From the NCBI RefSeq assembly GCF_000024985.1, contig NC_013524.1, forward strand, positions 1 to 64,000: DNA of 64,000 nucleotides. The letters run 5' to 3'. Below are positions 16,402-21,716 of the stretch, in pieces; positions within the stretch are counted from its first letter, which is position 1, and the number at the start of each line of letters is the position of its first letter. The translations under genes were made by a program, and so were the position numbers. The notes beneath the pieces are model-generated. The model saw only the letters and a program-made list of their open reading frames with translations, was not told the origin of the DNA and searched no databases. This DNA is from Sphaerobacter thermophilus DSM 20745. GTDB taxonomy: Bacteria > Chloroflexota > Chloroflexia > Thermomicrobiales > Thermomicrobiaceae.

Positions 16402-17115
16402 TCCAGCGCGACTGTGCAGCATACCCTACTGAACCCGGTCTTCGGCACTAGTATCGACTCGACCAGCACCGCGCGGCGGCCGCTCCCAGTGCATGTGGCG
16501 GCCGCGGCGCGCCGCCGTCTTATCGAGACTGACGAAATACCGTGGTGCACCGGAGCTGTCACCGTCGCCCGGTCGCTGTCATCCTGAGCGGAGCCGGCCG
16601 GCGGCGCGAAGGATCTCGGGGTGGAATGGCCGCTCCCGCGCGAGATCCTTCGCTGCGCTCAGGATGACAGGCGTGATGGAGCGGGCTGCTGACGGGTTTG
16701 CCGGTTAGATCCTCGACGTTCATCGATGGCCGGGCGTAATGGGTACCTCGCCGTGTCGAGCAAGAACCAGATCAATGATTCCTGCAAGCCGCCGCGTATG
16801 CACTGGCGAACTTAGGCGCCTAAATGGCGAAGGCGCCGCGGCCAATGCTGCTTACCCTTCGGTACTGCTGCCCACGCTTGAGCGGACCAGTGTCCGGACC
16901 GAGCGGCTGATCGACTGGCCGCTTGAATAACCCCCCATGCAATGGTTCTTACGTCAGCGCCCAGGTCCTCATAGCTGTATTCAACGGCAGGTCGACCTTG
17001 CAGCGATCGCTAGCTGTGTGAGCATTGGGGCCGATGGGGAATGTTGCACTCAAGACCCATACCATGGATGCAGCCTTCACAACTACGTCGTAATCTGATT
17101 GCAGACTTAAGATGC
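16402..17115. other. 714-base gene-poor stretch after the fdh operon
   Basis: It holds a NotI-like palindromic pair GGCGGCCGC (16475-16483 and again near 16497-16505) that could form a terminator hairpin, and a dispersed repeat (16577-16669). From about 16740 the GC content falls and no reading frame with a ribosome site and plausible codon use is seen on either strand. The drop in GC marks the left edge of the island ending near 18600. Confidence 0.5.
16577..16669. repeat. Dispersed TGTCATCCTGAGCG inverted repeat, copy 1
   Basis: TGTCATCCTGAGCG at the left end is inverted at the right end (CGCTCAGGATGACA), with an inner pair CGAAGGATCTCG / CGAGATCCTTCG. Related copies are at 25514, 39794 and 41519. 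Confidence 0.85.
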
Positions 17116-17143
17116 TTGACCTCACCGGCGTGTCTGCTATTAT
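17116..17143 (+). promoter_or_regulatory. Predicted promoter of the Cys-rich peptide locus
   Basis: TTGACC (17116-17121), 16-base spacer, TATTAT (17138-17143). The start would be near 17150, about 60 bases before the first gene of the island. Confidence 0.65.
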
Positions 17144-17208
17144 GGATTTACCAGCCTTTACCATTTGGGCACGTCCTCTTTAGCTGAGAGGGGGCACGTA
17201 CGGGGAAG

Positions 17209-17910
17209 ATGCACTATTGCCTCGGCTTTGATGGCGATTGTGCGACCTGTACGAAGATGGCCCATGACCTTGAAGCCCTCTCTGCCGGGCGGCTCACGGC
17301 GCGCAACCGGCGCGATCCTGAGGTGCAAGGATGGCGCGAGCGCGCGCTTGGTCCCGACGCTCCCTGGACACCGACCTTGTTCCGCGTTGATGGCGACAAG
17401 GTCCGTGCATGGACCGGTCGTGGCATGGCACGAGAGCTGGTTCGTGTGCTCGGGCCACGTCGAGCTTTCCAGGCGATGCGGTTGTTCGATGACGTTAGCA
17501 TGCCGGCGACCACTAGCCGCCGCGCTTTCCTACGCAAGCTTGGTACGGCTGCTGCGATGGGTAGCCTGTTGGCCTTCGGCAAGCTGCCGAGTGTGGCAGC
17601 GAAGCCTGGAAAGGCGCATAATCCGACAGACGCCTTTGCCACGGTGAGGAGCGAGCGCCTTGAGACTGCGGCATTGCACTCACTGCGTGCGCAGGTCCGT
17701 GCTAACCGCGATGTCAAGCAGGTGCTAGCCAGCATACCGTATAAGGAACTGCCGCCTGCAGAGGAACTGAAGGCAGCACGGCACACGTTAGCGAATGGTG
17801 CCGAGTTGTTGACGATAGGCTGGGCCATCAATGAGAAGTACGTCGCGGGGCTCCACATTTTGCCGGAGCGGAGGATTCCTGGCATTCACGAGCATTCCTC
17901 TATGCGGTGA
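17209..17910 (+). CDS. DCC-like thioredoxin domain joined to an internal Tat signal; N-terminal part of a Cys-rich precursor
   Basis: The 233-residue frame has two parts. Residues 1-95 resemble the DCC/DUF393 thiol-oxidoreductase family: CLGFDGDCATCTKMAHDLEAL with a D-x-x-C-x-x-C motif (C11, C14). At 98-130 a complete twin-arginine signal follows (TTSRRAFLRKLGTAAAMG, hydrophobic core, SVAA). An ATG at 17500 would start just before this signal but lacks a ribosome site, so a fusion is favoured. Residues 131-218 look like a pro-region. The last residues (PERRIPGIHEHSSMR) do not fit, whereas a -1 shift at ATTTTG (17857-17862) continues smoothly into the next frame. It is probably the front of one exported precursor; function unrecognised. 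Confidence 0.7.
   Translation: MHYCLGFDGDCATCTKMAHDLEALSAGRLTARNRRDPEVQGWRERALGPDAPWTPTLFRVDGDKVRAWTGRGMARELVRVLGPRRAFQAMRLFDDVSMPATTSRRAFLRKLGTAAAMGSLLAFGKLPSVAAKPGKAHNPTDAFATVRSERLETAALHSLRAQVRANRDVKQVLASIPYKELPPAEELKAARHTLANGAELLTIGWAINEKYVAGLHILPERRIPGIHEHSSMR
17857..17862 (+). other. Likely -1 frameshift site joining the precursor to its Cys-rich end
   Basis: Frame 1 reads GLHIL up to TTG 17860-17862. Slipping back one base on the TTTT run gives GLHIL-AGAEDSWHSRAFLYAVNGEE, a natural continuation; the -1 frame is open from 17835 to 18221. It may be programmed frameshifting, an inactivating deletion or insertion, or a sequencing error. Confidence 0.6.
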
Positions 17911-18224
17911 ACGGAGAGGAGTCACTGACCCTCCTGGCAGCAAGCACAGACGGACAATTCAAGACCAGGGCGATCCAGCCTGCATCGGGCATTGACCCCG
18001 GAACTGGTGGTGGCAAGGATTGCTCCTGCGGAGTTTGGCACGAAAATAATTGCTGTTGGTTCTGCGATTCATGGGACCGTAGTTGCATCATCTGGAACTG
18101 CGCGGAGTGTGCGCTCTCTTGTTTCCAGCTCTGGACGTGCGCAGCGTGTATTATCGGCTGGTGCGGAATGGCCTCAGCAATCAGGTGCTGTACCCACTCG
18201 TGGTGGGCGAAGTGTTATTGCTAG
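17907..18224 (+). CDS. Extremely cysteine-rich peptide (16 Cys), candidate bacteriocin-like product
   Basis: From a GTG that overlaps the previous stop as GTGA, this 105-residue frame has a leader part ending GIDPGTGGGKD and then about 66 residues with 16 cysteines and 8 tryptophans (for example DCSCGVWHENNCCWFC). The frame is open upstream to 17835, where it reads SWHSRAFLYAVNG, so it is more likely the C-terminal domain of the preceding Tat-signal protein. A Cys-rich end on a Tat-exported precursor recalls halocin C8 of haloarchaea, but the cysteine spacing was not matched in detail. Its TAG stop lies 12 bases before the next gene, whose AGGAGG fits in the gap, which supports the frame being real. 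Confidence 0.7.
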   Translation: MNGEESLTLLAASTDGQFKTRAIQPASGIDPGTGGGKDCSCGVWHENNCCWFCDSWDRSCIIWNCAECALSCFQLWTCAACIIGWCGMASAIRCCTHSWWAKCYC

Positions 18225-18236
18225 GCAGGAGGCGAC

Positions 18237-18581
18237 ATGTTCCACTACCTGCGCACTGCTTTGCACTGGAGGCTGGTGCGCGCTGCGCTCTTCTCGCTCC
18301 TAGCCGGTGCAAGCACAGTCGGATTCTCGGCTGTGCCGCTTTCAGCGGTGTTAGCCGGGTTGCTGGTCGGGCTGATCGCCGGGTCCTGGTGGGCCCTAGC
18401 ACTAGCACCACTCGGGTTCGTCATCGGCGGACAGCTGGCTCCGATGCTGGGCCTGCCAGCCTCCACGCTGGAGCTACTGGACTGGGTTCTGGTTATCGCT
18501 CTTACCCTCGCTGGAGCGACTGGGGGAGTGACCATCGGGCGCTACCTAGCGGGACGACCTACCCCCGAGAATTCACGCTAG
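18237..18581 (+). CDS. Small polytopic membrane protein of the Cys-rich locus
   Basis: A 114-residue hydrophobic protein with three or four predicted helices (about 14-30, 33-50, 52-68 and 80-100) and a perfect AGGAGG ribosome site. It follows the Cys-rich frame by 12 bases, so it is co-transcribed. No family was recognised. By position it could be an immunity or export partner of the Cys-rich peptide, as small membrane proteins often are in bacteriocin loci; this is inference. The hairpin at 18606-18640 closes the unit. Confidence 0.75.
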   Translation: MFHYLRTALHWRLVRAALFSLLAGASTVGFSAVPLSAVLAGLLVGLIAGSWWALALAPLGFVIGGQLAPMLGLPASTLELLDWVLVIALTLAGATGGVTIGRYLAGRPTPENSR

Positions 18582-18605
18582 GGACGTTGGTCTGCTGATT
18601 TGTTC

Positions 18606-18640
18606 GCAGCCCCCGACGAAGCGAGTTCGTTGGGGGCTGC
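18606..18640 (+). terminator. Hairpin closing the Cys-rich locus
   Basis: A 15-bp stem (18606-18620 with 18626-18640, one G-T pair) and a GCGAG loop lie 24 bases after the last stop. The following GTCATCTT is only weakly T-rich. Confidence 0.7.
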
Positions 18641-18765
18641 GTCATCTTGCCCGCACGCGTGCGATTGTTCTTGGTAGCCCTCCACAGCCCACACAAAGCG
18701 GGGCCGGGCACCTAGCTGGCACTACCGTGTAAGGACCGTCCACAGACACCGTCAGCGGCTGCCTG

Positions 18766-21716
<2,951 letters not shown>

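Follow-up and report, generated by a model that had tools for sequence, protein, structure and literature searches.

A frame-split gene for a probable bacteriocin-type precursor in Sphaerobacter thermophilus DSM 20745 and its one-frame relatives

There are two described systems that resemble the locus presented here. Halocin C8 is a hydrophobic, cysteine-rich peptide located at the C-terminal end of its precursor and exported by the Tat pathway. The fulvocin C-related bacteriocins, collected in the NCBIfam model NF033852, are closer. In their proteins a thioredoxin-like domain comes first, followed by a Tat signal, then a pro-domain and finally a short cysteine-rich tail. We have found the same order in the thermophilic soil bacterium S. 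thermophilus, in a gene whose DCC-Tat region is homologous to their leader. The differences are in the second half, where neither the pro-domain nor the cargo of our gene matches the model, the cargo exceeds theirs in length and in cysteine density (16 in 67 residues) and the reading frame is broken. The original prediction had compared the gene with halocin C8 precursors. What stands is a resemblance to the halocin C8-like TIGR04449 / TIGR04450 fusions in Tat export and in the cysteine-rich C-terminal peptide. However, TIGR04449 (24-bit threshold) found no match in the window or its genome, our gene has a thioredoxin-like domain ahead of the Tat signal and the membrane gene is separate instead of being a fused immunity domain; the nearest named family is instead that of the fulvocin C-related bacteriocins. 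Two of the relatives described below gave sub-threshold halocin C8-like matches (TIGR04449 / TIGR04450). We found no description of the general layout in the literature searched, and the searched family libraries have a name for no branch other than the fulvocin C-related one.

The window, that is, the whole stretch of DNA analyzed, comprises bases 1-64000 of a 1.25 Mb contig, in a genome of 3,993,764 bases in two contigs. The features of the locus are the following:

16412-18773, no strand: segment of ~2.36 kb that includes the entire locus; two congeners lack it between the corresponding flanking genes
17116-17143, + strand: sigma-70-type promoter-like site, TTGACC-16-TATTAT (consensus scan, 10/12 matches)
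17209-17910, + strand: frame-0 part of the precursor, from ATG 17209 to TGA 17908-17910 (open reading frame and homologues)
17209-17466, + strand: DCC-like thioredoxin-fold domain with a CxxC motif, DGDCATC (AlphaFold, fold matches, weak PF04134 similarity in relatives)
17512-17601, + strand: internal Tat signal (TIGR01409, conservation of the arginines in relatives)
17602-18020, + strand: pro-domain, split between frame 0 and the -1 frame (its homologues are the pro-domains of L007, L008, L045 and Thermomicrobium roseum)
17835-17907, + strand: interval of the frame change (stop positions in both frames)
17862-18224, + strand: -1 frame part with the end of the pro-domain and the cysteine-rich tail, to the TAG (translation)
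18021-18221, + strand: cysteine-rich cargo, 67 residues long, of which 16 are Cys and 8 Trp (composition count)
18237-18581, + strand: 114-residue multi-transmembrane protein, probable immunity partner (hydrophobic segments, arrangement in relatives)
18606-18640, + strand: inverted repeat 3' of the membrane gene (visible in the sequence)

The frame-0 part encodes the thioredoxin-like domain, the Tat signal and the first half of the pro-domain, followed by an overrun of 15 residues up to the TGA. For its first 86 residues a thioredoxin-like fold is predicted (AlphaFold pLDDT about 90-96 for 17209-17466); the CxxC has the position usual in DCC proteins, with its cysteine codons at 17239-17241 and 17248-17250. 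Fold comparison gave thioredoxin/GST-fold matches with VIA Z-scores of 4-6, which show only a shared thioredoxin-type arrangement. Foldseek with the full model of the relative L008 gave no match at E below 0.001. The DCC1-like thiol-disulfide oxidoreductases of PF04134 have in common with our gene the FDGxCxxC motif that ends the first strand and the thioredoxin-like fold. The window gene itself had no match to this model (cut-off 27.8 bits), its relatives reached up to 19.4 bits, still below the cut-off, and, unlike in PF04134, the domain serves here as a leader ahead of a Tat signal. This signal is made of SRRAFLRKLG, a hydrophobic stretch and an alanine-rich cleavage zone, and scored 17.4 bits with TIGR01409 (cut-off 16.7). 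Across 17 relatives the first of the twin arginines is invariant and the second is conserved in at least 90%. The gene thus has an N-terminal CxxC domain followed by a Tat signal, in agreement with the DCC-like domain and internal Tat signal originally proposed.

We have found both open reading frames at the predicted positions, and the two-frame observation is real. The -1 frame is open after TGA 17832-17834 and is closed by TAG 18222-18224, overlapping frame 0 by 72 nt. The joined protein has 338 residues, and the count of 16 cysteines and 8 tryptophans proposed for its C-terminal domain was reproduced in the last 67. As for the slip at ATTTTG (17857-17862), the change of frame was borne out but its exact site was not, as it may be anywhere between about 17835 and 17907 and ATTTTG is one choice among these. 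Codon usage, which had been set as a test of the cysteine-rich frame, gave a divided answer: scored in 120-base windows, it was on the side of frame 0 as far as about 17809 and of the -1 frame in windows whose first base lies between 17869 and 17989, but over the cysteine tail it separates the frames poorly. When the codons of the zero frame were shuffled, a stop-free -1 frame appeared in 5e-5 of the trials and one that had in addition at least 16 cysteines in none; a chance overlap of the frames was rejected on this basis.

A full-length alignment with relatives is obtained with the joined reading alone. Against T. roseum it covered residues 1-316 with 146 bits (129 for frame 0 alone), and against L008 residues 1-338 with 136 bits (122 for frame 0 alone). 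The bulk of the similarity falls before the break, and after it the similarity to single relatives is weak. For the best match of the pro-segment the observed score was reached by 5 of 1000 shuffles; for the best of twelve comparisons of the cysteine tail it was reached by none of 1000, several of the other comparisons not being significant. A combined profile of pro-domain and cysteine tail gave the joined protein -3.1 bits vs 0.9 for frame 0 alone, under a strong bias correction, and the joined protein beat most shuffles. In the model of L008 the position of the break is inside the predicted folded pro-domain.

Relatives were collected by a search with the leader (alignment A1), and we define the family of DCC-Tat Cys-rich precursors by the relatives in A1/A4. 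They are found in the same taxonomic family as S. thermophilus, widely in Chloroflexota and also in Rubrobacter and Streptomyces, and those of T. roseum (a finished record), Rubrobacter and Streptomyces are borne on plasmids. Most intact relatives have, in one frame, the CxxC domain, the Tat signal, a variable pro-domain and the cysteine-rich tail, which is the exact layout of the single precursor that had been predicted for the window. Whether the homologues are fused in one frame, a check proposed from the start, can be answered affirmatively for at least 13 of them: L006, L008, L017-L019, L021, L022, L044, L046, L047, L072 (T. roseum), L073 (R. radiotolerans) and L074 (Streptomyces). The window gene has the cysteine-rich cargo in the -1 frame and not, as the one-frame members do, in the open frame of the leader. 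Among the closest known counterparts is the hypothetical protein of T. roseum DSM 5159, TRD_RS12315 (WP_012642562.1), collinear with the window protein over 316 residues. It has 339 residues vs 338, likewise 16 cysteines in the tail and, as in the window, a gene for a small transmembrane protein downstream (103 residues, 9 nt after the precursor). The differences are that it is one open frame and that a response-regulator gene is located directly upstream, where none was seen in the window. A close intact orthologue of the exact cargo of the window was not found among the searched relatives; the search of the phylum with the cysteine tail gave only weak, composition-like matches, searches of Pfam, NCBIfam and PDB sequences with it gave nothing useful, and a scan of viral contigs with the leader found no relative.

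Two relatives connect the family to bacteriocins. L018, from another Chloroflexota class, and L074, from Streptomyces, matched NF033852 with 107.9 and 102.6 bits respectively, and the matches cover their pro-domain and tail. Neither part of the window gene matches this model (35-bit whole-protein threshold) and its cargo matches no bacteriocin model; its N-terminal part matches Streptomyces plasmid proteins annotated as fulvocin C-related. In 300 genomes of the phylum the NF033852 profile gave no match, but the controls were likewise silent and the known carrier was not matched, so that this is no proof of absence. In two Streptomyces plasmids (L075 2501-2753 and L076 2501-2759) the similarity to the leader begins further upstream than the start annotated for the fulvocin C-related CDS, and either this start is misannotated or the gene is broken.

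The coupled membrane-protein gene that had been predicted starts 12 nt after the precursor stop and its product has about three hydrophobic segments. Of 20 loci, 14 have a small multi-transmembrane gene whose start is within 200 nt downstream of the precursor; in the controls this happened at 1 of 114 window ORF ends and at 6.5% of random points. Upstream of L006-L009 there is a gene for a LuxR-type or similar HTH regulator. Genes for S8 serine peptidases, which are candidates for maturation, are found near the precursors of T. roseum (L072 1-175) and Rubrobacter (L073 22-1419). The NF033852 relatives and the small multi-transmembrane gene downstream together point to a precursor of the bacteriocin type that is probably paired with an immunity protein, in agreement with the earlier reading. 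The pattern is the one expected for a secreted antagonistic peptide and the protein that protects from it, and from it we infer an antimicrobial role and immunity. It is possible, with a distinctly smaller probability, that the tail is another kind of exported peptide (for example metal-binding or structural) and the precursor intact in principle, since no activity is known, the cargo matches no model and some relatives bear other cargo such as the HExxH protease-like L031 and L035. Two relatives with the same leader bear fulvocin C-related cargo, though, and the fast change of cargo, the paired small membrane genes and the frequent decay fit antagonistic peptides. The finished-looking genome G264 alone has nine copies of the leader (L017, L026, L028, L030-L035), with cysteine-rich, non-cysteine and HExxH protease-like (L031, L035) cargo, and several of them contain stops.

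Regarding the break itself, a real and recent indel is the best reading, an error in the record comes second and recoding third. The first is preferred because there is no slippery site, the RNA in pseudoknot-free folding behaves like its shuffles, the homologues are in one frame, other copies are broken differently and the record is polished. Specifically, L007 (HRbin28) has a +1 shift at 2296-2310, just before the cysteine tail, a place at which the closely related L008 and L045 keep the frame; in-frame stops are found in L009, L020, L026, L031, L032, L041 and L050, and deletions in L005 and L003. Weighing against this reading, the two open reading frames of the locus show no further lesion, so that either the break is new or the gene is in some way still expressed. 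A sequencing error, with a true gene of one open frame, seems unlikely to us. It would explain a lone lesion in an otherwise intact gene, located beside short G and T runs, and clone-based reads of genes toxic to E. coli can pick up lesions; but the record is a finished Sanger and 454 assembly, Illumina-polished, with a stated error of <1 in 100,000 (PMC3035262), and related copies in other genomes are often broken too. The same report gives 40 annotated pseudogenes for the genome (PMC3035262). As for phase variation at a homopolymer, it was discarded, the longest local run being of 4 bases.

The original prediction had the joined precursor made by programmed -1 frameshifting, which would yield it at a set ratio, and this is not supported. 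A programmed event calls for a slippery sequence, in most cases also for a structure that stimulates it, and for conservation. Apart from the break both frames are clean, joining them gives a sensible protein and the overlap extends over 72 nt, as such a mechanism would have it. Against it, the overlap contains no X_XXY_YYZ heptamer. A slip at ATT TTG would leave the P-site tRNA re-paired with one of three bases, and where re-pairing in the P site is perfect, which happens just once (GGG at 17848), the A site has no match. In pseudoknot-free folding the downstream RNA is no more stable than expected from shuffles (z -1.08, 30 of 200 as good). Besides, T. roseum and other relatives have the gene in one frame, and L007, the other copy with a shift, moves in the opposite direction and at another place. 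A Tat-exported bacteriocin-type precursor made by non-canonical recoding and dosed by frameshifting is very improbable. Equally hard to sustain are two separate proteins, the first stopping at TGA 17908 and a 105-residue cysteine-rich peptide restarting at the overlapping GTG 17907 (GTGA): this overlap, rejected as evidence for two genes, arises wherever A, G or T stands before a TGA, no ribosome-binding site is seen ahead of the GTG, the peptide would be without the Tat signal and one half of the pro-domain, and the relatives found include none with a two-gene build.

We consider it probable, judging from the sequence, that the locus is a horizontally gained bacteriocin-type precursor whose present allele was recently frame-broken, with loss of function. 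In the intact form, the cytoplasmic CxxC domain would help to oxidise or fold the cysteine-rich cargo in cis; an oxidoreductase-like domain attached to a Tat cargo suggests disulfide formation in cis before export, and the Tat pathway exports folded proteins. The folded product would then leave the cell by this pathway, a signal peptidase and an extracellular protease would free the tail, the disulfide-rich peptide would act on competitors and the small membrane protein would protect the producer. In S. thermophilus, a small indel in the pro-domain would make the ribosomes end at 17910, so that the cysteine tail would not normally be made. The frame split most likely reflects a mutation that inactivated, not long ago, one member of a peptide family that is widespread and has been little described. 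The split itself is probably ordinary decay, and of more interest is the family that it exposes, in which a CxxC domain ahead of an internal Tat signal, a swappable cysteine-rich cargo and paired small membrane proteins recur throughout Chloroflexota and in some Actinomycetota.

The acquisition that had been proposed for the locus agrees with the comparison of congeners. In two of them (G015 and G016) the flanking NrfD-like and peptidase genes are 35-42 bp apart, which makes the ~2.36 kb of the window extra at this site. The lower GC also stands, with 56-64% in the locus vs 68.1% in the genome. Of the strong promoter claimed for the gene there remains a putative one, TTGACC-16-TATTAT, a consensus score being no evidence of function. 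The closing hairpin is visible at 18606-18640, but it has no T run and is absent from the hits of the terminator scan.

A second, decayed copy exists in the same genome (L003 5488-5720, G000:C2 about 694487-694719), and it has in common with L005, from G016, a deletion by which the beginning of the pro-region has become joined to the membrane gene. The membrane gene of the window is 85% identical at the DNA level to the decayed copies. Compared with the decayed congener copy, there were 60 differences over 306 aligned bases, distributed 21/7/32 on codon positions 1/2/3, a pattern as expected for a leader that would have been long under selection. Forty-two of the 60 are C to T or G to A, with the base of the congener copy given first and that of the window copy second. 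Upstream of the gene, the window contains at 16500-16730 a dispersed repeat with many copies in its own genome and in G015. The fragment at 16780-16945 is about 75% identical to sequence that in L003 and L005 is located downstream of the decayed copies, while here it is found upstream of the gene.
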